Positions 13,311 through 34,353 of a stretch of 49,020 nucleotides of DNA are shown here, one piece after another; within the stretch, counting starts at the first letter, position 1, and the number at the start of each line of letters is the position of its first letter. The notes below the pieces were generated by a model. It worked only from the letters and a program-made list of their open reading frames with translations. It searched no databases and was not told where the DNA came from. A program made the position numbers and the translations under genes. Source of the DNA: a virus. The stretch covers positions 1-49,020 of the IMG/VR virus record IMGVR_UViG_3300037493_003182; one strand, given 5' to 3'.

Positions 13311-13691
13311 ATGCAACGTTATAACAAACAAGTATATTGGCCGGATGATTCTAATATGAAATTAGAATTATTTAATAATAATCTGAAAATAAAGTTAGCA
13401 TGTATATCTATATCTAATCACGCATTTGAAAGAATAAAAGAAAAATGTCCTTTGATAGGTGAATATAATGTAATTAAATGGATATATAAACAGACTTTAA
13501 AGGCAAAAGATATTATTGAATACTATGAAGACAATGGTGAAGTTATAAGAGCAGTATATAAAATACCTTATAATATGAGATTAAACATGGCATTAGTGGT
13601 GGATAAAGATTATCATATAGTAACGCTTTATTTCAACAATAAATACGATAATCACGCAACATTAAATAAAGACCTATATGAAAAGAAATAA
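13311..13691 (+). CDS. Hypothetical protein (126 residues)
   Basis: MQRYNKQVYWPDDSNMKLELF... The segment ISNHAFERIKEKC followed by IIEYYEDNGEVIRAVY and MALVVDKDYHIVTLYF has the layout of DUF4258/RelE-like proteins (His near the N-terminus of a helix, then strands), but the match is weak. It is the gene before the repeated-tail cluster. Could be a small toxin-like RNase or a structural relative; function open. Confidence 0.55.
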   Translation: MQRYNKQVYWPDDSNMKLELFNNNLKIKLACISISNHAFERIKEKCPLIGEYNVIKWIYKQTLKAKDIIEYYEDNGEVIRAVYKIPYNMRLNMALVVDKDYHIVTLYFNNKYDNHATLNKDLYEKK

Positions 13692-13693
13692 TA

Positions 13694-14020
13694 ATGTACA
13701 CGTTTAAAGTGGGTGATATTGTAAGATTAAAGACAATAGAGGAAGAACCTCGTAACACCGACCTTTTTATATTGACAGCGTCGGATAGAACAAGACTTCG
13801 TGAAGCAAAAACATTGACAGTGAAAAGAGAGCATACGACCGACGGTATACAAAAACTTGAATTTTATGAGGTGTCAGGCACGAGCTCATGGTATGCGTGG
13901 AGATTTGAATTAGTCAAACGACCAAGGAAGAGAACGCCACCAATCAAACGAAAAGGCTACGCATTGTGGATTCATAATATCGAATGTGAGAGAAAGAAAG
14001 GACGTAAACATGCCAACTAA
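13694..14020 (+). CDS. Repeated-tail family protein, copy A (SH3-like body, KRKGYALWIHNIE tail)
   Basis: 108 residues. Body begins MYTFKVGDIVRLKTIEEEP and contains WYAWRFELV, a pattern of small SH3-like beta-barrel phage proteins. The tail has KRPRKRTPPIKRKGYALWIHNIE at about residues 75-97, followed by a short basic end. A 58-base stretch in the tail (13905-13962) is identical to copy B at 15117-15174, showing recent duplication or gene conversion. Its 3' end overlaps the start region of the amidoligase at 14010. Candidate substrate or adaptor of the neighbouring ligases; that role is inference. Confidence 0.85.
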   Translation: MYTFKVGDIVRLKTIEEEPRNTDLFILTASDRTRLREAKTLTVKREHTTDGIQKLEFYEVSGTSSWYAWRFELVKRPRKRTPPIKRKGYALWIHNIECERKKGRKHAN

Positions 14021-14915
14021 TATAATATCGAACAAATCAACTGCTCGCGCAAAGCAAGTAGGGGTTACTGTTCATCAAAACAACATGGTTGGAGTATTTT
14101 TAGACCAACAAGACTATTTTCTGTCAAAGAATAATGACATGAAGAGCATCGTGGATGCTCAATTTGAAACGATACAAAACCAAGATTGGAATTTAAATCA
14201 TGGCTGGAAACCAACACCATGCTTTCATAAAATGAATTATGAACATATCAACACACTCTACATGGGAATCGAATTAGAAACAGAATATGATGAGGAATAT
14301 GTTTCTAATTCATTAATTAGTATTAAAAGGTATTTAAAAGCACAAAAACAAGAAATACTATTTTACGCTAAGGAAGACTGTACTTTGACAAATGGGATTG
14401 AATGGGTAAGTCAACCAATGACATTAGAGTTTATTAAGTATAATAATATGAAACAATTTTTACACCAAATAGAACTTGCAAATGGAGAAGTGTCTAGTAA
14501 TTGTGGAATGCATGTGCATATCAATAGTAATTTCTTGGGCGAACAGAATATTCATAAAATGAAGTTATTTTTCGCAAATAATAGTGGAGAATTATATAAG
14601 TTTTCAAAACGAAGGTCATCGAATTGGTGTTTAGCCGTTGACTGGACAGTAAAAGACTATACAAGTAAACGTGGGTATTATGATTGTTCAAGACGAGCAA
14701 TATCAGTATCGAAAAATACCACGGAAATAAGAATATTTAGTGGTACATTAGATTATAAGCAGTTTATGGCTAATTTAGAGTTAGTGGATAGCATAGCTCA
14801 CTTCGTAATAGAGCATAGTGCATTGAGTTTGAAGTGGAATACATTTAAACAGTGGGTAGTACAACAAAACAGATATAATTGGTTAGTAGAAAATTTAAAA
14901 GAGGTGAAATTATGA
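14010..14915 (+). CDS. Amidoligase-family enzyme 1 (Amidoligase_2-like)
   Basis: 301 residues from ATG 14010; an in-frame ATG at 13986 lies inside copy A and is less likely. Members of this family (COOH-NH2 ligases of the glutamine-synthetase-like fold) use ATP to join a carboxylate to an amine. Seen: GIELETE (86-92), AKEDCTL...GIEWVSQPMTL (120-139), CGMHVHINSNF (165-175) and TEIRIFSGTL (238-247), the metal/ATP-binding and active-site signatures of the family. The first half (1-80) is unassigned. It shares all motifs with the second amidoligase at 16252 but lacks the zinc modules. The stop overlaps copy B by four bases (ATGA). Confidence 0.85.
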   Translation: MPTNIISNKSTARAKQVGVTVHQNNMVGVFLDQQDYFLSKNNDMKSIVDAQFETIQNQDWNLNHGWKPTPCFHKMNYEHINTLYMGIELETEYDEEYVSNSLISIKRYLKAQKQEILFYAKEDCTLTNGIEWVSQPMTLEFIKYNNMKQFLHQIELANGEVSSNCGMHVHINSNFLGEQNIHKMKLFFANNSGELYKFSKRRSSNWCLAVDWTVKDYTSKRGYYDCSRRAISVSKNTTEIRIFSGTLDYKQFMANLELVDSIAHFVIEHSALSLKWNTFKQWVVQQNRYNWLVENLKEVKL

Positions 14916-15223
14916 CATATAAAGTTGGAGACCTTATTAGAGTAGTAAAAATACGAGAGGGCTCGGCCGAGAATGTATGTGCCTTAGAAGGCGCAACCGG
15001 GTTACGAGTAACACATAGTATCGGTGGAGGAGTTTATGTAACAAAGGAAGCAGGCTCTATAGTACCTATCAATGCGATATGTTGGACGGCGGGCTTGTTA
15101 TTATTTGATAATGAAATTGAATTAGTCAAACGACCAAGGAAGAGAACGCCACCAATCAAACGAAAAGGCTACGCTTTCTGGATACACAATATCGAACATA
15201 AATCAAAGAAAGGGATTAAATAA
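14912..15223 (+). CDS. Repeated-tail family protein, copy B
   Basis: 103 residues from ATG 14912, which overlaps the amidoligase stop and has GAGGTG upstream. MTYKVGDLIRVVKIREG body, then ELVKRPRKRTPPIKRKGYA and FWIHNIE. It shares 58 identical bases with copy A and 40 with copy E (15111-15150 here, 20175-20214 there). Its TAATG junction couples it to the amidotransferase gene. So one copy sits between the first ligase and the amidotransferase. Confidence 0.85.
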   Translation: MTYKVGDLIRVVKIREGSAENVCALEGATGLRVTHSIGGGVYVTKEAGSIVPINAICWTAGLLLFDNEIELVKRPRKRTPPIKRKGYAFWIHNIEHKSKKGIK

Positions 15224-16239
15224 TGTGTATTATCATTGGTAAAGTATCAGGAGTTAAATTTCCTAAAGATGAGTATTTAAAAACATCAGAGTCACATAAT
15301 AGTGATGGGATTGGTATTGCATATCATAAGTTTGGAACAGATAAAGTTATAATTAAGAAAGATTTTAAAGACGTAAATGATTTAATTAAGTTTCAAAATG
15401 AAAATCTGAAAGAAGAGGATTCGGTCTTATATCATTTTAGATTTGCAACTCACGGATTAAAAGACGAAGGCAATAGACATCCTTTTCCAGCATCAAAGGA
15501 TGAAAATCTGTTACGCTCTGTAAATCTGGAAACGAATTTGGCCATAGCTCATAACGGAGTGTTATCTGAATATTCTGATAAAAAGAATAAACTGAGTGAC
15601 ACACAGTTATTTATTGGGGAAATAATGAGCGATGAGGTTATTATAAACAATATTAATAACGAGGTCATCTTGAGTTTAATTGCGGAAAGAGTATCGCCAA
15701 GTAGGCTGGCTATTATGCAAAAGAACGGAGACATTATATTCTTAAACACCTTTACAGAAGAAGACGGATGCCTGTATTCAAATACAAATTATAAAACGCC
15801 TAAATTTAATTACTTAAATACCAACTATTCAAGCGGTTGGTCGTATCAGGGTGAATATGGTGCATATGGACACGGCTATGGATTACCAAGTACATTAGAT
15901 GCGCAGGACGCTAAGGCAATAAAAGCCTTAAATAATAAATCATATGCAAATATTGTTAAATCAACGGCGTATAAAGCAAAGTGTGATGATTGTGCAAAAG
16001 AACAACATGTAATGGACGTAGAGAGTGGTGATGTTATATTAAAATTGTGTAAGAAGTGTAGAAAGAGATTTAGAAAAGATGAGAAGGAACGAAACTTGAC
16101 AGATAAACCGCCAACTCAGGACAGTGAGATGTATTATTGCGCATCGTGTCAAACATATTATCCAAAAAAAGGAATGATATCGATAACACAGGGAATATAT
16201 AGTTGTGAAGCGTGTTTTACATCGTTAACATTAGAATAA
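15223..16239 (+). CDS. Class II glutamine amidotransferase with C-terminal zinc ribbons
   Basis: 338 residues. The N-terminal Ntn-hydrolase domain begins MCIIIG, so Cys2 becomes the N-terminal nucleophile after Met removal. Other hallmarks: NSDGIGIAY (26-34), HFRFATHG (71-78), IAHNGVL (108-114) and SDTQLF (125-130). This domain releases ammonia from glutamine. The C-terminal 100 residues carry two four-Cys ribbons (CDDC/CKKC and CASC/CEAC) and a Gly/Tyr-rich linker. There is no synthase domain in the polypeptide, so the ammonia acceptor must be another protein; the flanking amidoligases and ATP-grasp enzyme are obvious partners. Translationally coupled to copy B (TAATG). Confidence 0.88.
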   Translation: MCIIIGKVSGVKFPKDEYLKTSESHNSDGIGIAYHKFGTDKVIIKKDFKDVNDLIKFQNENLKEEDSVLYHFRFATHGLKDEGNRHPFPASKDENLLRSVNLETNLAIAHNGVLSEYSDKKNKLSDTQLFIGEIMSDEVIINNINNEVILSLIAERVSPSRLAIMQKNGDIIFLNTFTEEDGCLYSNTNYKTPKFNYLNTNYSSGWSYQGEYGAYGHGYGLPSTLDAQDAKAIKALNNKSYANIVKSTAYKAKCDDCAKEQHVMDVESGDVILKLCKKCRKRFRKDEKERNLTDKPPTQDSEMYYCASCQTYYPKKGMISITQGIYSCEACFTSLTLE

Positions 16240-16251
16240 AAAGGAGCCAAT

Positions 16252-17493
16252 ATGAACAAGAAAGTATGTCGTAATTGTAAAGCGGATACTGGCGAACTTG
16301 ACATATACGATGAGGTAGTTCTTTGCAACGACTGTGTCAAAAAATACGTCGGAATATGTGAAACTTGCGGACAAAAACACCTTAAAAATCACCTAACCTC
16401 ATCTATGCAAAAAGAATATTGTCAGGAGTGTTTTAATAAGGTTGCAACGTATTGCAGGTGTTGTGATAAACGAGTATTGAAAGAAGATATTGTAGAGGAT
16501 GAGTTTGATAGTCAAAAAGTATGTAAATCATGTTATAAAAAACAATCAATAATCAGACGATATGATTTTAAACCGCCGGAATTAGAATTTCATAAGACTA
16601 ACTCAGATACGGATGAAAATCTATTACATATGGGATTTGAGTTAGAGGTTGAACCTAATCAACCAGACTATACCGCAGCGGAGATGTTACAAGTTTATCT
16701 GAAAAAACACAATCTATATAAATCTCACTATTATATGAAACATGATGGTAGTTTGCGTGGATTTGAGATAGTAAGTCAACCAATGACACTGAGATGCTTG
16801 CATCAGAAGGCAAAATTAAGTCAGATACTCAAGTTCATGCAAGAGAAGGGGTTTACTTCTTTCTTAGGAGGTAAGTGCGGATTTCACGTTCATGTGAGTA
16901 GAAAGTTTTTTAGTTCAGAAGAAGTCGATAACGGAGACTTACAGTTAAAAAAGTTGAGATTGTTTGTAATAACTAATAAACAATATATTAGAAGATTGTC
17001 CAGACGATATGGAATTGGTGAAGATAGATACTTTCGTTATGAAGATTGTGATTCAAAAGAAATCATTAAAGGACGTTCAAACACAAATCGATATTCAGCG
17101 TTAAATATATCGTTTCGTGGACAACAAACAGTTGAGTTTAGAATGTTTAGAGGTACGTTAAATTACAATAGAATATTAGCAACTTTACAATTTGTGGAGG
17201 CCGTTTGCTATTATACAGCAGCAGAATCAACAGGAATAACATCATTAATCAAAGATAAGAGTTGGGAAAACTTTATTGATTGGTGTAAACAGGTAGAGAG
17301 ATACAGTCATTTTGTAAGATACTGGGAAACAGAGGGTAAGAAAACACATTTACGAGCACCAACTGATAATGATAAAGAAGATGATATAGAAAAGAAGACA
17401 GCTAATTTAACTTGGAGAAGTGAAGTAGAATACCTTGAAAAGATGTATGGAAAAGACCATCACAATGTTAGAGCAATGAGAGAATTGGTATAA
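16252..17493 (+). CDS. Amidoligase-family enzyme 2 with N-terminal zinc modules
   Basis: 413 residues. The first 96 hold four Cys-pair modules (CRNC/CNDC, CETC/CQEC, CRCC/CKSC), arranged like treble-clef or LIM-type zinc fingers. The ligase domain follows: HMGFELEVE (126-134), MKHDGSLRGFEIVSQPMTL (162-180), CGFHVHVSRKFF (209-220) and TVEFRMFRGTL (293-303). The two amidoligases therefore match motif for motif, differing mainly by the zinc part, which could recruit substrate. AAAGGAGCC precedes the ATG. The end (LEKMYGKDHHNVRAMREL) is charged. Product and substrate unknown. Confidence 0.87.
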   Translation: MNKKVCRNCKADTGELDIYDEVVLCNDCVKKYVGICETCGQKHLKNHLTSSMQKEYCQECFNKVATYCRCCDKRVLKEDIVEDEFDSQKVCKSCYKKQSIIRRYDFKPPELEFHKTNSDTDENLLHMGFELEVEPNQPDYTAAEMLQVYLKKHNLYKSHYYMKHDGSLRGFEIVSQPMTLRCLHQKAKLSQILKFMQEKGFTSFLGGKCGFHVHVSRKFFSSEEVDNGDLQLKKLRLFVITNKQYIRRLSRRYGIGEDRYFRYEDCDSKEIIKGRSNTNRYSALNISFRGQQTVEFRMFRGTLNYNRILATLQFVEAVCYYTAAESTGITSLIKDKSWENFIDWCKQVERYSHFVRYWETEGKKTHLRAPTDNDKEDDIEKKTANLTWRSEVEYLEKMYGKDHHNVRAMRELV

Positions 17494-17507
17494 CCGTGGA
17501 GGCACAA

Positions 17508-17900
17508 ATGCAAACAATAAAAACCACAATATTTGACACTCTACTAACAATGTTGGAAACGGCCGCATTAAAAGAGTTTGATACTCTTAAAATAAACTAC
17601 TCAAAAAATGGATACGAAAAGGAACTAAAAGATAACTACGTTAAGCACAGAAAACACGCAATGCTCAAAGAAATCATAATGGCAATACGTAAGAAATGTG
17701 GAATAGTATGCGACACCGCAAGAAAATGCTATACGGAGTGGTTAGATATTATATCAAAAGATACACCGTTAGTTGTACATAATAAAACTTGTATAGAATG
17801 TAATAGGACGTTTCATATGATACACGACGATTATATGAAGATATTATTATCTGATAGTTGGATTAAAAGTCACGAATTTATTTGTGAAGATTGTAAATAA
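17508..17900 (+). CDS. Hypothetical zinc-knuckle protein (130 residues)
   Basis: Start set at ATG 17508 because GGAGG lies 5 bases upstream; the in-frame GTG at 17496 has none. Helical and basic (KELKDNYVKHRKHAMLKEI), ending with CIEC...CEDC about 35 residues apart, a zinc ribbon like those on the amidotransferase. It lies between amidoligase 2 and copy C. Possibly a partner sharing the same recognition module; function unknown. Confidence 0.65.
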   Translation: MQTIKTTIFDTLLTMLETAALKEFDTLKINYSKNGYEKELKDNYVKHRKHAMLKEIIMAIRKKCGIVCDTARKCYTEWLDIISKDTPLVVHNKTCIECNRTFHMIHDDYMKILLSDSWIKSHEFICEDCK

Positions 17901-17911
17901 AAGGAACTAAC

Positions 17912-18214
17912 ATGAATGAGTTTAAAGTAGGTGATGTGGTAAGATTGAAGACGATAGCGGAAGAACCCAGTAATATAGATATTTTTAACAGCGACTCTCT
18001 TCATGATAAAGAATTGGTAAAATGCACAAAAGTAACGGTTACATGTTGCCATTGCGGGATACTTCGTGTTTGTAATACTTCTGAGACATTGGAGTATGGG
18101 TGGTATGATTGGAGATTTACATTAGTAAAACCTAAACGCAAATCACCAATCAAACGAAAAAACTATGCACTGTGGATTCACAACATTGAGAAAAAAAGAA
18201 AGGCTCACCAATGA
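17912..18214 (+). CDS. Repeated-tail family protein, copy C
   Basis: 100 residues. MNEFKVGDVVRLKTIAEEP is close to copy A, and the middle has CCHCG and WYDWRFTLV. The tail is KRKSPIKRKNYALWIHNIE plus KKRKAHQ. The Gly of KRKGY is Asn here. It overlaps the next gene by four bases (ATGA). The body and tail vary independently among copies, which fits modular exchange. Confidence 0.83.
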   Translation: MNEFKVGDVVRLKTIAEEPSNIDIFNSDSLHDKELVKCTKVTVTCCHCGILRVCNTSETLEYGWYDWRFTLVKPKRKSPIKRKNYALWIHNIEKKRKAHQ

Positions 18215-18660
18215 AAACAGGATTCTTACAGTCATTATTAAAAGACGTTAATAGTCAAACAGATTCGGAATCACCAATGTCAACAGCAACACAGTTAGTC
18301 AATCATTATTTTAATAAAATATATAGCAACACCGCGGAGTGTGACTATATCTTAGGAAAGAAAATGACTCTAGTATGTATTGACTTGTTAACATGGTTGA
18401 ATTCAAGCAAGGATTATACTAAGTCAAAGTTATCATTTAGCTGGAAAGATAGTATTAAGAACGCAGATAAAAAATTAATACCATTAAAGAAGAAATTGTT
18501 TCATGGTTGGCTTACGGGTAAATTTAGTAAGTGGGAAAAAACTTTCTCTGAGAAACAGAATAAAAGCATAAGCGATAAAGAGTGTTTGAATATTATATCA
18601 CGATATAAGACTTTTAAAATAAGTGATTTAAATAATGTAAAAAAGGAGTTAGGCTTATGA
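18211..18660 (+). CDS. Hypothetical protein (149 residues)
   Basis: MKTGFLQSLLKDVNSQTDSESPM... mostly helical and basic, with no Cys cluster or catalytic motif I recognise. ATGA overlaps on both sides tie it to copy C and to the gene at 18657, so it belongs to the same transcript as the ligase cluster. Could be a dedicated partner or substrate. Confidence 0.6.
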   Translation: MKTGFLQSLLKDVNSQTDSESPMSTATQLVNHYFNKIYSNTAECDYILGKKMTLVCIDLLTWLNSSKDYTKSKLSFSWKDSIKNADKKLIPLKKKLFHGWLTGKFSKWEKTFSEKQNKSISDKECLNIISRYKTFKISDLNNVKKELGL

Positions 18661-18866
18661 ATGAAAAAAAGAAAGAAATTACTTGCAAACCACAGCAGGT
18701 ATATATAGTGATGTTAGACAATTATTGTGAAGGGTGTGGAGATACTTGTAACTGTCATGATAATTATCCGGGCGATGCATATGTAGCGTTTTTTGATAAA
18801 GACAAAGCAGAAACCGAGGCTAAAAGTTGGGGTGGATTTATAAAAGAAGTGGAGGTTCGAAAATGA
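18657..18866 (+). CDS. Hypothetical Cys-rich protein (69 residues)
   Basis: MNEKKKEITCKPQQVYIVMLDNYCEGCGDTCNCHDNYPGDAYVAFFDKDKAETEAKSW... The CEGCGDTCNCH cluster may hold zinc or an iron-sulphur centre. The VAFFDKDKAETEA segment is typical of small phage proteins. Overlaps copy D by four bases. Confidence 0.6.
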   Translation: MNEKKKEITCKPQQVYIVMLDNYCEGCGDTCNCHDNYPGDAYVAFFDKDKAETEAKSWGGFIKEVEVRK

Positions 18867-19150
18867 GTAATTTTAAAGTAGGTGATATTGTGTTAGTGAA
18901 CGGAGACCAAGTCGCAAGAGACTGGATGATACGTCACTCATTAGACTCAAACACTTGTAAATATGTTATCAACAGTGTCTCAGAGTCTGAAGACTATAGA
19001 GTGTGTCATATGGATGGAACATTCCTATGCTGGGCTGCCTCGTCACACCTAACACTGTTTAGAAAAAAGAAAACAACACCACTCAAACGTAAAGGCTACG
19101 CATTGTGGATACACAATATCGAATGTAAATCAAAGAGAGGAGTTAAATGA
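18863..19150 (+). CDS. Repeated-tail family protein, copy D
   Basis: 95 residues from ATG 18863 (preceded by GTGGAGG). The first 62 bases match the start of copy F at 21367 with two differences, so D and F share a recent common body. Body: MSNFKVGDIVLVNGDQVARD. Tail: TTPLKRKGYALWIHNIE followed by CKSKRGVK, very like copy B's ending. Coupled by ATGA to the ATP-grasp gene. Confidence 0.85.
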   Translation: MSNFKVGDIVLVNGDQVARDWMIRHSLDSNTCKYVINSVSESEDYRVCHMDGTFLCWAASSHLTLFRKKKTTPLKRKGYALWIHNIECKSKRGVK

Positions 19151-19950
19151 GTATTTTCATTCACCACACATTAAAGTCTGATACGGGGCCAAAGTTAGCA
19201 AAGGTACTACATAATGGCAAGAACGGATTTACATTAGACAGCGCAGAAGATAATTTTATTGTGAATTATGGACGGCGAGATAGCTCTTTAGCTAAACTGA
19301 ACACAAATATTGTATCAAATAAACTCGACCAATTAAAAATAATGCAACGCAATAACGTAAGTGTACCGGAGTGGTTTGAAATGACGGATATTAATAATCT
19401 GAGACCGTCTTATTTTCCGTTAATAGCGCGAAAATATCATCACACACAAGGAAGAGATGCAATATTTTTGCGTGCACCTGTATCGTTGAGAAAACGATGG
19501 AATAGAGTAACAAGAAAACGCGATTACTTTATTAAATATATTGCCAAATCAGAAGAGTATAGAGTGCATGTATTAGGCGACACTATTGCTGGAATAAGTA
19601 AGAAGATTAAATACTCAACAGTAATGAGAGATAGTGATGACGAGGATGACGCGGCTCATCAGTATATACCAACAACAGCACATCCTCATATCTGGAGTAG
19701 GTTACGAGGTTGGATTCAAGTTGACTATGACGGTACAGAGACAGAGAGTTTGAAGGAATTGGCAGTTAGAGCGTGTAAAGCATTGCGATATGACTTTGGG
19801 GCAGTAGATATCATTAAAGATTTAAATGGTAAACTATATGTATTGGAGATTAATAGTGCACCGAGATTAAATTTACGCAGACGCAGATTATATTGTAAAT
19901 ACTTTAGAGAGAAACAGAAAGCATTTTTGGAAGGGAGTCGCCATGAGTAA
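19147..19950 (+). CDS. RimK-like ATP-grasp ligase
   Basis: 267 residues. Lysine/ATP-binding strands PLIARKYHHTQGRDAIFL (91-108) and YFIKYIAKSEEYRVHVLGD (127-145) are followed by the acidic metal site FGAVDI (217-222) and VLEINSAPRLN (232-242), the classical ATP-grasp ending with Glu-x-Asn. Enzymes of this group activate a carboxylate as acyl phosphate and join it to an amine, as RimK adds glutamates to a protein tail. There is no separate N-terminal substrate domain of standard size. It is the third predicted amide-bond-forming enzyme of the cluster, flanked by copies D and E. Confidence 0.87.
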   Translation: MSIFIHHTLKSDTGPKLAKVLHNGKNGFTLDSAEDNFIVNYGRRDSSLAKLNTNIVSNKLDQLKIMQRNNVSVPEWFEMTDINNLRPSYFPLIARKYHHTQGRDAIFLRAPVSLRKRWNRVTRKRDYFIKYIAKSEEYRVHVLGDTIAGISKKIKYSTVMRDSDDEDDAAHQYIPTTAHPHIWSRLRGWIQVDYDGTETESLKELAVRACKALRYDFGAVDIIKDLNGKLYVLEINSAPRLNLRRRRLYCKYFREKQKAFLEGSRHE

Positions 19951-20275
19951 ATTCAAATCGGGTGACAGAGTAAGAGTGCGCGAGAACTATGAGGTCTCAG
20001 AATTGGTAGAATTAGAAGGAGTTATACTAGACAACAATCACTCTAATTCGTCGAAGAGATACATAGTGTCTTTTGAAAATATCATTTCGGAAATATCAGA
20101 GGAGATACGACACAAATATTTACATAGCTGCAGCGGAAGCTTACCAGTCAGAACAGGAAGATTTTTCTCTTCTGATGAAATTGAATTAGTCAAACGACCA
20201 AGGAAGAGAACGCCTGTAATTAAGCGTAAAGGTTATGCATTGTGGATACACAACATTGAAAGAAAACGTAAATAA
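19943..20275 (+). CDS. Repeated-tail family protein, copy E
   Basis: 110 residues. MSKFKSGDRVRVRENYEV body, different from the other copies in the middle, then DEIELVKRPRKRTPVIKR and KGYALWIHNIE, ending in RKRK. Forty bases are identical to copy B just before the tail. It overlaps the ATP-grasp gene by 8 bases and is followed by the RuvB-like gene. Confidence 0.85.
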   Translation: MSKFKSGDRVRVRENYEVSELVELEGVILDNNHSNSSKRYIVSFENIISEISEEIRHKYLHSCSGSLPVRTGRFFSSDEIELVKRPRKRTPVIKRKGYALWIHNIERKRK

Positions 20276-20283
20276 AGGATATT

Positions 20284-21354
20284 ATGGCAATATTATTTTG
20301 GTTAGTGTTACTTATTATTTTCGGGGTGATTTATTTTTTAACAAAAGATAAAGAAGTAACGAATAGATTACCTGAGATTTGGGATACAAAAGTGTCGTCG
20401 TCTGATTTACTACACATCGTAATATCGGAGCCAAAGATTAATGAAAATTCTTTAGTAAAAGTATCACCAACCACTAAAACAATGTTTAGACCGCAAACAT
20501 TGACCGAGTACATTGGACAAGCAAGAGCTAAAGAATTAATCAAATTAAATATAGAGAAGATAACAAGATTTAAGCCAATACATATTTTCTTGTCAGGAGA
20601 TAAAGGCCACGGAAAGACAACACTTGCAAATATTATTGCCAATATGTTACACGCGCAGTTTATTCAACGGATTGGGTCTCAAATGACTGATGTTGATGAT
20701 GTGATAGAGGTATTAAATTTAATAAATACCTCAGAAGAGCTTTGGACAGTATTATTTTTAGATGAAATTCATACAATGAAATGTAAACCAGAATTGTTTT
20801 ATACGATAATGGAAGACTTTAAACTGGCCGGACAAGCTATCAAGCCTTTTACTTTAATAGGGGCAACAACTGAAAAGAATGTATTTGCCGGGAAGTATGA
20901 ACCATTTCTGGACAGGTTTCAATGTATTGAATTAGAACCTTATAAAAATGAAGATATTGTAGCGATATTATCACAATATAAAAGACAAATGTGGAATAGT
21001 TTACCAGATAACGCAGAGCATTTGAGAATTATATCTGAAAACTGTAAACGAACACCGAGAATCGCCATCACACTGCTGGAAGATACATTAGTTGTCAACG
21101 ATATTACCAAGATATTAAAGTATCACGATATAGTTATCAATGGATTAACGAGTAAAGACATACAACTGTTGAGACTGTTGCGAGATATAAACAAACCCGT
21201 AGGAGAGGACGCATTATCACAAGCAATTGGTATCAATAAAAAAGATTATAAAACATTACATGAACCTTATTTAGCGAAAGAGCAATATATAATTAGAACT
21301 GGAAAAGGCAGAATAATTACGGCAAAAGGGTTAGCATTATTAGCAACACTATAA
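20284..21354 (+). CDS. Membrane-anchored RuvB-like AAA+ ATPase
   Basis: 356 residues. An N-terminal transmembrane helix (about 3-20, AILFWLVLLIIFGVIYFL) and a 45-residue linker precede a RuvB-type AAA+ core: MFRPQTLTEYIGQ (67-79), Walker A GDKGHGKTT (105-113), Walker B LFLDEIH (157-163), sensor-1 GATT (193-196), and FLDRF with probable arginine finger Arg211. The C-terminal winged helix keeps the RuvB ending (EPYLAKEQYIIRTGKGRIITAKG). Classical RuvB has no membrane anchor; with it, the ATPase would sit on the cytoplasmic membrane. No RuvA is seen. Position within the ligase cluster suggests it may act on modified proteins or DNA at the membrane rather than in Holliday junction migration. Confidence 0.85.
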   Translation: MAILFWLVLLIIFGVIYFLTKDKEVTNRLPEIWDTKVSSSDLLHIVISEPKINENSLVKVSPTTKTMFRPQTLTEYIGQARAKELIKLNIEKITRFKPIHIFLSGDKGHGKTTLANIIANMLHAQFIQRIGSQMTDVDDVIEVLNLINTSEELWTVLFLDEIHTMKCKPELFYTIMEDFKLAGQAIKPFTLIGATTEKNVFAGKYEPFLDRFQCIELEPYKNEDIVAILSQYKRQMWNSLPDNAEHLRIISENCKRTPRIAITLLEDTLVVNDITKILKYHDIVINGLTSKDIQLLRLLRDINKPVGEDALSQAIGINKKDYKTLHEPYLAKEQYIIRTGKGRIITAKGLALLATL

Positions 21355-21366
21355 GAAAGGTACTAT

Positions 21367-21636
21367 ATGAGTAAGTTTAAAGTAGGTGATATTGTGTTAG
21401 TGAACGGAAACCAAGTCGCAAGAGACTGTATGAAATCAGTCTCATTAGACTCGGATACTTGCCCATGCATCATCGTCAGCACCATAGATAGATTCTATAA
21501 CGTGTATCGCATGAACGGAACCTACCTTGGTACGGTAGATGATGGATACCTTACTTTTTATAAAAAGAGAATACCATTCAATGGTAAAGACCGCGCTCTT
21601 AAAATACACAATATCGAACGCAAAAGAAAGAGATAA
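21367..21636 (+). CDS. Repeated-tail family protein, copy F (divergent tail)
   Basis: 89 residues. The N-terminal body is nearly the same as copy D (60 of 62 bases). The tail is degraded: GKDRALKIHNIERKRKR keeps the IHNIE core but has lost KRKGY and the Trp. If the tail is functional, this copy shows which residues are dispensable or that it is decaying. GAAAGG lies upstream. Confidence 0.8.
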   Translation: MSKFKVGDIVLVNGNQVARDCMKSVSLDSDTCPCIIVSTIDRFYNVYRMNGTYLGTVDDGYLTFYKKRIPFNGKDRALKIHNIERKRKR

Positions 21637-21637
21637 T

Positions 21638-21901
21638 ATGAATAAATATATTTTTATTTGGTGGAAATTCGTAAAGAACAAAGATGAAGTTTATAAGAAC
21701 GAGACAATAGAAGAAACTTATTCATTTGGATATGGTGTTAAGTGTAAGTGTTTATTTCAAGCAAAAGATAATGACAGAGCTATTAGTTTTGGACACACGT
21801 TAGCACAAGAACACGACGCAACAATATACTCAATTCATCAAGTGTTGAATTTTGGAAAGGCACAAACACTCTACACAACGGAGGCTAAAAATGCCATCTA
21901 A
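21638..21901 (+). CDS. Hypothetical protein (87 residues)
   Basis: Start at ATG 21638; an open frame further upstream overlaps copy F and is not used. MNKYIFIWWKFVKNKDEVYKNETIEETYSFGYGVKCKCLFQAKDNDRAISFGHTLAQEHDATIYSIHQVL... Alpha/beta fold without a known motif. Its last bases hold GGAGG serving the broken copy G. Confidence 0.6.
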   Translation: MNKYIFIWWKFVKNKDEVYKNETIEETYSFGYGVKCKCLFQAKDNDRAISFGHTLAQEHDATIYSIHQVLNFGKAQTLYTTEAKNAI

Positions 21902-22066
21902 TGATACCTCATCTGATACGCCACGAAACCAGTGCACTTTAATATGGACGCAATTGATAGTATTGGTTTAGATGCATCAAGAAATACAATGCCTAAAAAA
22001 CAAAGTAAACCAAAACGTAAGAATTACGCTTTATGGATTCATAATATAGAGAAAGGAATGAAATGA
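21891..22066 (+). pseudogene. Repeated-tail family, copy G, frameshifted or reduced to the tail
   Basis: An ATG at 21891 with GGAGG 7 bases upstream opens a frame (MPSNDTSSDTPRNQ...) that stops at 21969-21971. The next frame (shift of -1) carries MDAIDSIGLDASRNTM then KRKNYALWIHNIEKGMK, from ATG 21944 to 22066 (40 residues), or from GTG 21932. The well-placed ribosome site belongs to the first frame and the conserved tail to the second, as expected for a single-base indel. The alternative is a short stand-alone tail peptide. No classical slippery heptamer is seen. The stop overlaps the next gene (ATGA). Confidence 0.6.
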
Positions 22067-22326
22067 AAAAATATAAAGTAATTGATTGTCAGTGCGATAG
22101 TTACTTTTGGGAAGGACATAAATTTAAATCAAAAGAAGAAATTGTTGACGCTTTAGCAAGTTATCACGATGTTGACTTTCTGGAGGCGTTTGAAGATGAC
22201 GATGAGCAAGCACCAAATGATATATATGATTTTCTTGATAAGTTTTTAACAACACAACTTAAATTAGATTTTTTATTAGACCATGGAACCTGGGAAATTG
22301 AGGAGGTAGAATATGAAAAAGTTTAA
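22063..22326 (+). CDS. Hypothetical acidic protein (87 residues)
   Basis: MKKYKVIDCQCDSYFWEGHKFKSKEEIVDALASYHDVDF... ends GTWEIEEVEYEKV. Acidic centre (FEDDDEQAPND). ATGA overlap with copy G upstream and 14-base overlap with the next gene downstream. No known motif. Confidence 0.65.
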   Translation: MKKYKVIDCQCDSYFWEGHKFKSKEEIVDALASYHDVDFLEAFEDDDEQAPNDIYDFLDKFLTTQLKLDFLLDHGTWEIEEVEYEKV

Positions 22327-22471
22327 AGTAACTTTCGTTGAAGAAATTGAATGTGAGGACGAAGAACAAGCATATGATATTTTATTAGAAATATTAAATG
22401 AGACTGTTAAAGCAGAAGATGTTACTGCATTTAATTTTAAAGAAATAAAAACAAAAAAGAGGTTAGTATGA
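22313..22471 (+). CDS. Hypothetical acidic protein (52 residues)
   Basis: MKKFKVTFVEEIECEDEEQAYDILLEILNETVKAEDVTAF... a strand-helix layout with acidic helices. GAGGAGG inside the preceding gene is its ribosome binding site. ATGA-coupled to the next gene. Function unknown. Confidence 0.6.
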   Translation: MKKFKVTFVEEIECEDEEQAYDILLEILNETVKAEDVTAFNFKEIKTKKRLV

Positions 22472-22635
22472 AGTATAAACCATACAACACAATCGAAATT
22501 CATGATGACAAAAGAGCGCGATTACTAAAATATGATGATTATAGTATAAGAATTAAGGGAATAGTTTACGAAGTATCAGTATGTAGAGATACTCATGAAC
22601 TGTTTATTAATAAAGATGAAAACCAAGGAGACTAG
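22468..22635 (+). CDS. Hypothetical protein (55 residues)
   Basis: MKYKPYNTIEIHDDKRARLLKYDDYSIRIKGIVYEVSVCRDTHELFINKD... Short beta-rich protein ending in a TAG directly before the rtcB start; its last codons supply AAGGAG for rtcB. No motif recognised. Confidence 0.6.
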   Translation: MKYKPYNTIEIHDDKRARLLKYDDYSIRIKGIVYEVSVCRDTHELFINKDENQGD

Positions 22636-23832
22636 ATGAAAGTATTAAATTTTGAAAACGAACTACATGTTAAAAGTTGGTGTGATAATATCGAAGATTC
22701 GGCATTAAAGCAAATAGAAAACCTATCTAAATTGCCATTTGCATATCATCATATAGCTATCATGCCAGACTGTCACAGTGGATACGGTATGCCGATTGGC
22801 GGAGTGTTAGCAACTAAAGACGTGGTAATACCAAACGCTGTTGGAGTCGATATTGGTTGCGGAATGTGCGCTGTAAAAACATCGTTACAAGCAAGCTCTT
22901 TAAATAAAGAATTACTTAAAGAAATTATGAGAAAGATAAGAGAGGCTGTGCCTGTAGGAAAGAGACATCATAAAGACAAGCAAGATGAACGTCTAATGCC
23001 TACTAAGAGTGAATATGAAATGAAAAAAATAGTATCAGAGGAGTATCAATCAGCCTTACATCAATTAGGTACTCTCGGAGGCGGTAATCATTTTATTGAG
23101 CTACAAAAAGATACATATGGTAATGTTTGGATTATGATTCATTCAGGTAGTCGTAATCTTGGATACAAGGTGGCTAATTATTACAATGATTTAGCGGTCT
23201 CGTTAAACGAGAAGTGGCAAAGTAAAGTATTTAAAGAATGGGAACTGGCCTTTCTACCGTTAGATTCTCAAGAAGGAAAGAATTATCTAGATGAAATGCA
23301 GTATTGTGTTGACTTTGCATTGGCTAATCGTCAATTGATGATGAACAGAATATTAAAATGTATTGACGATACTCTTGTTGAAAATATAGAAGGAACTAAT
23401 TGTTGGACACATGAACCTATTATAAACATCGCTCATAACTACGCAATATGGGAAAACCATTTTGGCAAGAATGTTATTGTTCATCGCAAAGGAGCGACGT
23501 TGGCAAGAGAAAATACACTAGGTATAATTCCGGGTAGTCAAGGCAGTAAGAGTTATATTGTACAAGGGTTAGGCAACTCAGATAGCTTTCAGTCATGTTC
23601 TCATGGTGCGGGTAGAAAGATGAGTAGAACAAAGGCAGAGAATGAACTCAATCTTGAAGAAGAAATTAAGAAATTAGATGACCAGGGAATTGTTCATGGT
23701 ATTAGAACGAAGAAAGATTTAGATGAAGCCACTGGAGCATATAAAAATATAGATGAAGTTATGGAAAGTCAAAAAGACTTGGTTAAGATATTGGTTGAAT
23801 TAACTCCATTGGCAGTGATTAAAGGAGATTAA
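22636..23832 (+). CDS. rtcB: RtcB-type RNA ligase
   Basis: 398 residues, the length of bacterial RtcB. RtcB joins 2',3'-cyclic-phosphate or 3'-phosphate RNA ends to 5'-OH ends using GTP and Mn2+. Motifs: IMPDCHSGYGMPIGG (42-56), GVDIGCGM (70-77), LGTLGGGNHFIE, IHSGSRNLG, VHRKGATLA and SCSHGAGRKMSR, covering the metal ligands and the guanylylated-His region. This end chemistry is what cleaved tRNAs carry, so RtcB probably repairs tRNA cut by host anticodon nucleases. Directly followed by a recombinase gene (no gap). A second, different ligase lies at 33214. Confidence 0.94.
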   Translation: MKVLNFENELHVKSWCDNIEDSALKQIENLSKLPFAYHHIAIMPDCHSGYGMPIGGVLATKDVVIPNAVGVDIGCGMCAVKTSLQASSLNKELLKEIMRKIREAVPVGKRHHKDKQDERLMPTKSEYEMKKIVSEEYQSALHQLGTLGGGNHFIELQKDTYGNVWIMIHSGSRNLGYKVANYYNDLAVSLNEKWQSKVFKEWELAFLPLDSQEGKNYLDEMQYCVDFALANRQLMMNRILKCIDDTLVENIEGTNCWTHEPIINIAHNYAIWENHFGKNVIVHRKGATLARENTLGIIPGSQGSKSYIVQGLGNSDSFQSCSHGAGRKMSRTKAENELNLEEEIKKLDDQGIVHGIRTKKDLDEATGAYKNIDEVMESQKDLVKILVELTPLAVIKGD

Positions 23833-24630
23833 ATGATATTACAAGATGAGCTGAAAAAGTTTAAAGAGAATTTAATCTTACAGGGAAAGTCACCAGACTA
23901 CTGGTCTAGAATTAGAGAACTGTTATATGTTCTGGAAGCATTTGACGATGAACATATCACTAAATTTCTTATGAATATGATACAGAACAAAACTCACAGC
24001 ACCGCAACAATAAATCAATACATAGTTTCTATCAATGCGTTTGCAAGTTTTATTAATATACCGATTAAATTAATTAAGCCACTAAAAGTCACCAACAAAA
24101 TGCCAATATACATGACACTGGAATTCTTTGAGAATGAATTTATGCCAACAGTAGAGACAGTATTTGAGAGTAATAAATATAAATATCGAGCGTTATTTTA
24201 TTTCTGGTTTTATACGGGTATGCGAGGTAGAGATATTGCAAATGTAGAAAGAGCGAATATTAATCTAGAAACGTGCGAAGTAAAATTTCTCAATAAGAAA
24301 TCGAAGATGGAGCAGATGGCTTTCTTCCCAAAGAAAATAGTACCGACATTGAAAGATTATTTTGATAGAGAGGTCGAGAGAAAAGGAGCGTTTAATATCG
24401 GCCTAAGCGGAATTAATCGCAGTATTAGAGTATTGAAACCTCACTTTACAACAATGAGTTTACATGCGCATATATTTAGACACTCGTTTGCTACTCATTG
24501 GATACGTAGTGGCGGAGACATTCGCATATTACAGTTATTACTTGGTCATAAGAATATACAAACAACATTGAAATACCCAATATGTAATACTGAAATGATG
24601 AGTAAAGCCTACAGTGATAAGATTAAATAA
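23833..24630 (+). CDS. Tyrosine recombinase (phage integrase family)
   Basis: 265 residues. An N-terminal SAM-like DNA-binding half precedes the catalytic domain with TGMRGRD (Arg131), a Lys in FLNKKSK, HIFRHSFATH (His213, Arg216), LLGHKNIQTT (His239) and the nucleophile Tyr248 in LKYPI. All five or six active-site residues are visible, so it should be active. Its role could be integration, resolution of genome multimers or a DNA inversion. No attP-like repeat or repressor gene is seen nearby, so integration is uncertain. Confidence 0.9.
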   Translation: MILQDELKKFKENLILQGKSPDYWSRIRELLYVLEAFDDEHITKFLMNMIQNKTHSTATINQYIVSINAFASFINIPIKLIKPLKVTNKMPIYMTLEFFENEFMPTVETVFESNKYKYRALFYFWFYTGMRGRDIANVERANINLETCEVKFLNKKSKMEQMAFFPKKIVPTLKDYFDREVERKGAFNIGLSGINRSIRVLKPHFTTMSLHAHIFRHSFATHWIRSGGDIRILQLLLGHKNIQTTLKYPICNTEMMSKAYSDKIK

Positions 24631-24640
24631 AGGAGCCATT

Positions 24641-24835
24641 ATGACAAAAGTATGTTGTGCGTATACTGATTGTAAAAACAATAGAAAAACGAACGAAGGA
24701 TATTTTTGTTCTTTAAAAGCAATAAACATAATATATGTTGCTCTGCATGATGATACAGACGGTAGATGTGTTTGTGATATGTATGAGTGTAGGAAAGGTT
24801 ATTGTGCAAGTAAAGAAATGAGGCAATATGATTAA
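24641..24835 (+). CDS. Cys-rich small protein (64 residues)
   Basis: Start at ATG 24641 with AAAGGAGCC upstream. MTKVCCAYTDCKNNRKTNEGYFCSLKA...GRCVCDMYECRKGYC. Eight Cys in pairs resemble small metal-binding phage or DUF1540-type proteins (CxxxxCxNN...C). Function unknown. Confidence 0.65.
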   Translation: MTKVCCAYTDCKNNRKTNEGYFCSLKAINIIYVALHDDTDGRCVCDMYECRKGYCASKEMRQYD

Positions 24836-25211
24836 ACAAATATTAAATACTGAAGGGTATGGCCGAGAAATTGATTTATTAGCGCGATTAGAGGTAAGAT
24901 TAGCCGACCGTGGAATACTAAGTTCTAGTAATTTTGATTTTGAGCAAAACACATTAGTAAGAATAGATAATATATTCTTGCAGATATACGAATCTGACAA
25001 AGAGTGTACGTTAGAAGAGGCTAAGCTCGGATTTTTCTCAGAGTTGTACGGTTCTTTGAGCGTTGTTGGTCAATCATTTGGCTATTCAGAATATACAATC
25101 AATGAATTCAACTTGTCAACTGCGAGGTTAGGCGGTCACAATATTCAAGATATTATAAACAATAAAAAAGATAAATATTTACATGTTATTATATCACAAG
25201 TAAAGCTATAA
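24828..25211 (+). CDS. Hypothetical protein (127 residues)
   Basis: MIKQILNTEGYGREIDLLARLEVRLADRGILSSSNFDFEQN... helical, acidic. Overlaps the preceding gene by 8 bases. No known motif. Confidence 0.6.
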   Translation: MIKQILNTEGYGREIDLLARLEVRLADRGILSSSNFDFEQNTLVRIDNIFLQIYESDKECTLEEAKLGFFSELYGSLSVVGQSFGYSEYTINEFNLSTARLGGHNIQDIINNKKDKYLHVIISQVKL

Positions 25212-33213: not shown

Positions 33214-34353
33214 ATGTCATCATTGATTGTAGAAATATGTACGATTGATAATGTAGCTAAAGTAGAGAAGGCTGATAAACTTGACGTTGTTACCATCAAA
33301 GGATGGCAATGTATTGTTGGCCGCGATAACTTTAAAGTTGGAGACCTGTGTATTTTTTTACCGCCAGATTCTATTGTACCGGAGGCGTTAATTGATAAAT
33401 ATAAATTAGAGTTCTTGCGTAAGAATAACAAAGTAGGTACTATCAAATTAAAAGGTCAGGTATCACAGGGTTTGGTTTTAGACCTTACTTGTTTACCAAA
33501 TAAAAAATATAAGGTTGGCGATAATGTGGCTGAGATTTTACACATAACCAAGTGGGAACCACCAGAACCAGAATATCAACAAACAAGCCAGAAAGAAACT
33601 ATCGGTGATATTTGGCAAGACTTTGTAAAACACAATATTAGTTTTAGAAGAATGTTTCGCAAAATCTTTAATTACTATATCACAAGAATGAAAAAGAAAC
33701 GCAATAAACTGAATGAGTTCTTTAATAAATTCACAGACATCGAGAATATCAAGCACTATTCAGAAGTATTTAAAGATGGTGAAGAGGCAGTTATTACGGA
33801 GAAAATTCATGGAACGAGCGCAAGGTACGCCAAATTACCTATCAAAAAGAATAGCAATCAATACCAATTCTATTATGGTAGTAGAAATGTACAGTACATA
33901 GATACAACTAAAACAAGCCAAAGCTATTACAATGCTAATGTATACGCAAAAATAGCTATTAAATATAATCTTGAAGAAGTATTACCAAATGACTACACAG
34001 TCTATGGTGAGATATATGGTAAAGGTATTCAAGACCTGGAATATGATATGAAAGATATTGATTTCATGGTATACGCAATATCTTATAAAAATAGATACTT
34101 AGATTACGCCGAGCTGGTAGAAAAGGCAATTGAATTTAAATTACCGTTCGTACCAACATTGTATGTTGGAGCGTTTTCTCAACAAAAACTCGATGAATGT
34201 ACAAAAGGTAACTCATTAATCGCACCTAACCAGATACGAGAAGGATGTGTAGTGTTATCTACAAAAGAAGGTGTGGCTTCGTGTGGTAGAAAGATATTGA
34301 AAAGCATCAACGCAGAGTATTTATTAAGAAAAAAAGGTACGGAGTATAAATAA
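33214..34353 (+). CDS. RNA ligase, Rnl5/DraRnl-like (Rnl2 superfamily)
   Basis: 379 residues. An N-terminal OB-like module (residues 1-100, FKVGDLCIFLPPDSIVPE) is joined by a basic linker to the nucleotidyltransferase domain. Motif I is EKIHGTSAR with the adenylated Lys197, motif III/IIIa is VYGEIYGKGIQDLEYD, motif IV is REGCVVL and motif V ILKSINAEYL. This N-terminal OB plus ligase layout is that of Deinococcus-type Rnl5. It seals 3'-OH/5'-phosphate RNA nicks, complementing the RtcB at 22636, which seals the other kind of end. Confidence 0.85.
   Translation: MSSLIVEICTIDNVAKVEKADKLDVVTIKGWQCIVGRDNFKVGDLCIFLPPDSIVPEALIDKYKLEFLRKNNKVGTIKLKGQVSQGLVLDLTCLPNKKYKVGDNVAEILHITKWEPPEPEYQQTSQKETIGDIWQDFVKHNISFRRMFRKIFNYYITRMKKKRNKLNEFFNKFTDIENIKHYSEVFKDGEEAVITEKIHGTSARYAKLPIKKNSNQYQFYYGSRNVQYIDTTKTSQSYYNANVYAKIAIKYNLEEVLPNDYTVYGEIYGKGIQDLEYDMKDIDFMVYAISYKNRYLDYAELVEKAIEFKLPFVPTLYVGAFSQQKLDECTKGNSLIAPNQIREGCVVLSTKEGVASCGRKILKSINAEYLLRKKGTEYK

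Follow-up and report, generated by a model that had tools for sequence, protein, structure and literature searches.

A selected C-terminal tail shared by small SH3-like proteins in an amidoligase and ATP-grasp gene cluster of a virus, and its possible role as a docking tag

What is the role of a nearly constant peptide at the end of many small viral proteins, and does it belong with the ligase genes among which these proteins are encoded? The question is raised by a locus in the IMG/VR virus record IMGVR_UViG_3300037493_003182, the entire record of 49,020 bases being analyzed here (hereafter the window). From a conserved gene of the lineage (13311-13691) to a RuvB-like AAA+ ATPase gene (20284-21354), the locus holds two Amidoligase_2 genes, one class II glutamine amidotransferase (GAT), one RimK-like ATP-grasp ligase, three hypothetical genes and five genes (T1-T5) for small proteins with a common C-terminal tail. 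Two additional tailed open reading frames (ORFs), T6 and T7, are placed downstream of the RuvB-like gene, and all of these genes are read on the plus strand. An earlier note on this DNA had proposed a peptide-ligation cluster in which each enzyme has a tailed protein beside it and the tail is recognised or modified by the ligases; its ORFs are found at the positions which it gave.

The tail KRKGYALWIHNIE was found in seven ORFs, all inside 13.7-22.1 kb, which is far above chance, and the repeated tail of the earlier note is thereby borne out. It is present in this form in T1 (13694-14020), T4 (18863-19150) and T5 (19943-20275), as KRKGYAFWIHNIE in T2 (14912-15223), as KRKNYALWIHNIE in T3 (17912-18214) and T7 (21932-22066), and in a diverged form, GKDRALKIHNIE, in T6 (21367-21636); T1 to T6 have an SH3-like body in front of it. 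Over the 13 codons of the tail core in six copies, the pooled proportion of differences was 0.91 at silent sites (pS), which are saturated, and 0.04 at the remaining sites (pN). The tails of T3 and T7 have 13 identical residues with 10 silent changes, and the neutral probability of all ten changes being silent is about 3e-8. At identical tail residues the observed codon difference was 0.43 vs 0.56 for random synonymous codons in the window, and the corresponding values in two related viruses, G003 and G004, were 0.38 vs 0.45 and 0.31 vs 0.43, respectively. The folding of the tail RNA was no better than that of shuffled sequences. Because the silent sites are saturated and there is no RNA structure beyond the shuffles, the tail is conserved as a selected peptide and not as a DNA repeat or by recent DNA copying; a regulatory RNA and gene conversion are ruled out on the same grounds. 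Lys and Glu are invariant in the window tail, and the copies continue for 4-11 residues after the NIE motif, giving ragged C-termini. The basic residues 3′ of NIE partly coincide with the Shine-Dalgarno region of the next gene, and the conserved codons are upstream of the Shine-Dalgarno. The window tail was absent from 50,697 phage records searched by tblastn, and scans for its pattern in IMG/VR and GTDB yielded chance matches only, none of them with tail context.

The same design with other tails was seen in G003 (109 kb) and G004 (53.5 kb; IMGVR_UViG_3300029811_000124), which were reached via the nearest amidoligases. The DNA polymerase, UvsX-like recombinase, primase and RuvB-like genes of both have about 37-43% identity to those of the window, and by gene comparison these viruses are diverged members of its lineage. 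Each encodes an amidoligase, a GAT and an ATP-grasp. There are 20 tailed proteins in G003, with a tail of approximately IKPYGIVxFCKKYY, and 14 small tailed proteins in G004, with a tail of approximately NPNNNIIIK, most of them with an SH3-like body. In these relatives the tailed genes form tandem runs and keep to the ligase region, which takes up about 14.7 of the 109 kb of G003 and 12.5 of the 53.5 kb of G004; the exception is a primase-helicase of G004. The ATP-grasp gene is flanked on both sides by tailed genes in all three viruses (18863-20275 in the window), and in each of them the RuvB-like gene is also located within the tailed cluster. The similarity of tails across viruses did not exceed that of shuffles (p 0.93, 0.38 and 0.72), and a shared ancestry of the three tails, considered on account of an apparent G-I-x-N-x-x-N-N-I likeness, was rejected, as this likeness did not stand out from shuffles either. 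The three tails have no acidic, Lys or hydroxyl residue in common. The tail patterns of G003 and G004 were confined to their own virus, apart from one out-of-frame chance match.

The bodies which carry these tails were analyzed by structure prediction and profile searches. In the AlphaFold2 model of a tailed copy of G003 (predicted local distance difference test score, pLDDT, 84), five strands form an SH3-like barrel, after which comes a helix at the tail, and Foldseek matched this model to the SH3-like nitrile hydratase (NHase) beta, PetP and L21e folds with probability near 1 and E values above 1e-3; the model of a window copy taken alone was poor (pLDDT 61). The viral fold matches of the body include a DUF4314 protein, and phrog_4317 matches T1. 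Within each virus the identity of tails vs bodies was 0.83 vs 0.29 (window), 0.44 vs 0.23 (G003) and 0.58 vs 0.24 (G004). Hidden Markov models (HMMs) of the body built without one of the viruses retrieve part or all of the copies of the left-out virus, which points to a single body family, and since the omitted copies are still recovered, the lack of any match at E<0.01 in five further viral records (G001 and G005-G008) is meaningful. A tree of the bodies did not resolve, the sequences being too short and diverged; the bodies have no clear grouping by virus, whereas the tails group completely by virus. As a separate observation, the stretch 66112-66660 of G003 (reverse complement) encodes an SH3-like body and tail and then an apparent lipoprotein signal (LLSGC), which may be due to gene fusion or overlap.

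The tail is also found away from its usual body. The G004 primase-helicase, a protein of 960 residues (22320-25202, reverse complement), has the C-terminus TNPNNDIIVK, and none of its orthologues (those of G003, G001 and the window) ends in a tail; in the tail-profile searches it was the sole tailed protein beyond the small family and distant from the cluster. T7 is a short ORF with the tail and without an SH3-like body. Because the tail is found on the G004 primase-helicase, unlike its orthologues, and on the body-less T7, it behaves as a portable tag, as far as gene comparisons can tell. In G003 the tail is internal in two longer ORFs. The start of T7 is uncertain, and near position 21891 of the window a Shine-Dalgarno and an ATG open an ORF of 26 codons in a frame which differs from that of the T7 tail, so that its start or a frameshift is ambiguous.

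The distribution of the tailed family was compared with that of the ATP-grasp. Of 31 whole viral records, three have the PF08443 ATP-grasp, and an alignment profile of the SH3-like tailed family matched these three as well and, with a single marginal match (E 0.04), a fourth (Fisher p 2e-4, which ignores kinship); the records of this sample are possibly incomplete and mostly amidoligase-bearing, and viruses having the SH3 family without ligases could be missed by it. A lack of co-occurrence between the tail family and the enzymes, which would have spoken against the earlier note, was thus looked for and not seen. When IMG/VR was searched with an ATP-grasp profile, G003 and G004 were the sole other contigs. 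The gene at 13311-13691 (plus strand, phrog_1905), which is the left border of the cluster, was used for locating the matching region in G001, a further member of the lineage, where neither ligases nor tailed proteins are found and other small genes occupy the interval between the same border genes. In G005 (105 kb), also of this lineage, an amidoligase and a GAT are present, and the ATP-grasp and the tailed family are both absent. It appears that the tail family goes with the ligase set. Because the DNA polymerase of the window is no closer in identity to those of G003 and G004 than to that of G001, a single gain or loss may not suffice for the joint pattern of tail and ATP-grasp. Other C-terminal motifs were noticed in the untailed records: several small proteins of G005 (L116-L121) have an NRDYW-like motif in common, and about 19 small, often overlapping genes of G008 (L104; IMGVR_UViG_3300005323_000061) end in a GxDY-like motif on different bodies, with no ATP-grasp in the record. 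The GxDY motif was set aside, as it has no SH3 body and partly overlaps the start region of the next gene, and may be a DNA-level feature.

The enzymes of the cluster look intact in alignments, and the degenerate ligase motifs which the earlier note had allowed for were not seen. Amidoligase A (14010-14915) matches the Pfam family Amidoligase_2 with E 1.9e-6 (28.4 bits vs a cut-off of 22) and Amidoligase B (16252-17493), which has N-terminal CxxC zinc-ribbon-like segments, matches it (PF12224) with E 1.6e-10 (41.8 bits, also above the cut-off). Both retain all residues invariant across 94 aligned homologues, with glutamine synthetase-like motifs intact; in Amidoligase A these are E/E, D, E, H/H and E/R, and unusual S to T and R to S changes are present at adjacent, less strict positions. 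The free-standing GAT (15223-16239) is slightly below the Pfam cut-offs for GATase_6 (E 5e-5) and GATase_4 (E 3e-4), and its class II motifs (Cys2, NxDG, HxRxAT, HNG and DT) are all intact in an alignment of 70 sequences; it has four C-terminal CxxC pairs that are zinc-ribbon-like. The RimK-like ATP-grasp (19147-19950), for which orthologues were found in two other viral records only, scored 27.2 bits against PF08443 (cut-off 21) and 40.5 bits against the rimK_fam model TIGR00768 (cut-off 143), scores that point to a relative of the RimK alpha-L-glutamate ligases, and ATP-grasp motifs common to the window copy and the two orthologues were found. All four enzymes match the families to which the earlier note had assigned them. 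A GAT gene was present in 67 of 84 amidoligase loci, nearly always directly downstream, and this adjacency together with general enzymology suggests that the amidoligase and the GAT form an ammonia-using amide synthase pair. An unusual repetition of the pair was seen in G007 (L123/L124), where 23 kb hold amidoligase stretches in several places and three GAT genes (L029).

How may these parts work together? The tail is constant within a virus, differs between viruses, stands on diverse bodies and is movable, and for these reasons we read it as a recognition or docking tag with a reader that would change together with it between the phages. Selection on the peptide, virus-specific tail identity, portability and co-occurrence with the ATP-grasp are, at the level of sequence, well supported properties of such a tag. 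Since the presence of the ATP-grasp tracks the tags, the co-encoded ATP-grasp and amidoligase set is the likeliest reader, and the bodies may be adaptors; to this whole reading we give a probability of about 0.42. In it, amidation of a carboxylate would probably be the joint work of the amidoligase and the class II amidotransferase, which releases ammonia, and an amino acid or a peptide would be added by the RimK-like ATP-grasp. The constant, virus-specific tail would dock the small proteins onto the ATP-grasp and amidoligase complex, and the variable SH3-like bodies would deliver different targets to this complex in an F-box-like manner. The fullest form of this proposal, a phage adaptor system of 7-20 proteins with diversified, target-binding SH3-like bodies and one virus-specific tag docking to an amide-bond ligase complex, is conceivable and we hold it as doubtful.

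Several points weigh against the ligases as the reader. The link between tag and ligase is one that we infer, and there is no common tail-binding domain. The three tailed viruses are one lineage, so the co-occurrence rests on few independent events, and G008 has its GxDY motif without an ATP-grasp. The tagged primase-helicase of G004 and the in-cluster RuvB-like gene fit a replication hub equally well. An SH3-like N-terminus fused to the amidoligases of G003 and G004, which was noticed by eye only, gave no match with the body HMM and is not claimed.

The main rival is that the tag is read by a non-ligase partner, either a host factor or complex or a replication and recombination hub, with the ligases merely sharing the locus. 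This is a serious contender, although on the whole unlikely: the tag on the primase-helicase, the RuvB-like gene within the tailed cluster of all three viruses and tails that differ by virus, as tails fitted to different hosts would, speak for it, but RuvB-like and primase genes also occur in relatives without the tailed family, and the ATP-grasp is, as far as tested, the gene which distinguishes tailed from untailed viruses. It is improbable that the tailed proteins are substrates and the ligases modify the tail itself, as the earlier note had suggested. RimK-type enzymes work on the C-termini of proteins, the ATP-grasp co-occurrence would be the same, and the window tail has its invariant Lys and Glu; but the ragged ends and the lack of a reactive residue shared by all three tails make modification less likely, and this part of the earlier claim is left without support. 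Slightly harder still to accept is an ordinary fast-evolving multi-copy family, in which the tail is only the best-conserved part, kept alike by local duplication in each virus. The copies are clustered and often tandem, small SH3-like proteins are frequent in phages and the body tree lacks resolution, all of which such a family would explain, yet its peptide would have stayed constant despite saturated silent sites, on a non-SH3 ORF and a primase-helicase as well, and with complete sorting of tails, not clearly of bodies, by virus. A graspetide-like ribosomally synthesised and post-translationally modified peptide, with the tailed proteins as precursors cyclised by the ATP-grasp, is very improbable: the layout of constant and variable segments and a distant similarity of the ATP-grasp to the maturases MvdC and MvdD would suit it, but the maturase models score far under their cut-offs, the G003 and G004 tails have no conserved acceptor or donor residues, and the bodies are predicted to be folded barrels. 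Equally remote is an element acting at the level of DNA or RNA (homology for recombination, a regulatory RNA or overlapping ribosome-binding sites), which the Shine-Dalgarno regions held in the 3′ ends of tailed genes would favour, and which may account for the GxDY motif of G008, but which the codon data refute for the core peptide, along with the absence of structure above shuffles and the position of the conserved codons.

What is new here is the tailed protein family, and the enzyme set is of an already known phage kind. Iyer et al. 2009 is reportedly, from the papers that cite it, the source on phage clusters of amidoligase, COOH-NH2 ligase, GAT-II, ATP-grasp and gamma-glutamyl cyclotransferase (GGCT). 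Related enzyme sets are annotated in Alcaligenes, Stenotrophomonas and Vibrio phage records, and in UFV-P2 and related LUZ24-like phages a COOH-NH2 ligase, Amidoligase_2, GAT, ATP-grasp and GGCT are found in one early region (PMC3890496). No description of the tailed family was found. By sequence the window set fits the LUZ24/phiEco32 type, having like it Amidoligase_2, class II GAT and RimK-like ATP-grasp together in an early region. Those clusters also have a GGCT and a COOH-NH2 ligase, whereas Pfam and PHROGs scans of window cluster proteins recognised neither a GGCT nor a second COOH-NH2 ligase; these are taken as accessory and not defining features of the type. The family of SH3 body and constant tail was absent in the three loci of LUZ24/phiEco32-like phages that were scanned, and the literature examined does not mention a small tagged family alongside such clusters. 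Mycobacteriophage Marvin and OM43 phages resemble the window in having an amidoligase with a GAT-II gene, but in the loci examined they have neither the ATP-grasp nor the tailed family; published guesses for such clusters are cell-wall modification against superinfection (phiEco32) and secondary metabolite synthesis (Marvin), with the function unproven (PMC10580990). The SH3-like small proteins of phages (phrog_4317, DUF4314-like folds) have the same type of barrel as the tailed bodies, whereas the tailed family is multi-copy, has a virus-specific constant tail and stands beside ligases. F-box and SOCS-box adaptors offer an analogy of working, being multi-copy with a variable target-side domain and a constant docking motif, but they are not homologous to the tailed family, whose ligase docking is a proposal.

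The phage amidoligase, amidotransferase and ATP-grasp clusters have been annotated for more than a decade with their substrate unproven, and the tag gives a concrete handle on them: it can be used as bait for its reader, and the tagged proteins for finding targets. Should the ligases be the reader, this would be a multi-adaptor protein-modification system of which none was found described in bacteria or phages, and if the bodies are adaptors, the phage could select which host or phage proteins get modified, a viral parallel to the F-box families. If the ligases are not the reader, an address tag on many proteins, unrelated in sequence between related phages, is still unusual and testable.

The remaining features of the locus are as follows. 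The genes of the cluster do not interleave one-to-one as the earlier note had described: Amidoligase B has no tailed neighbour, T5 and T6 flank the RuvB-like gene, others precede hypothetical genes, and the relatives have tandem runs. Translational coupling, which had been offered as specific evidence of joint function, does not serve as such, for stop/start overlaps are frequent throughout the region and equally at junctions without tail genes. Of the hypothetical proteins, the one at 17508-17900 (130-134 amino acids, aa; the longer form from a GTG start at 17496) gave no family in PHROGs and NCBIfam at E<=0.1; the other two are at 18211-18660 (149 aa) and 18657-18866 (69 aa). The gene at 20284-21354, between T5 and T6, has orthologues in G001, G003, G004 and G005, and the clamp loader label given to it by PHROGs was dropped in favour of RuvB-like on its NCBIfam match (E 5.8e-50). 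PADLOC gave no convincing match to known defence systems. At the left end of the window a nine-base tandem repeat (129-226) reads as collagen-like, by eye, on the minus strand, and an RtcB-type RNA ligase (22636-23832) and a second RNA ligase (33214-34353) are also encoded, by which RNA repair is suggested.

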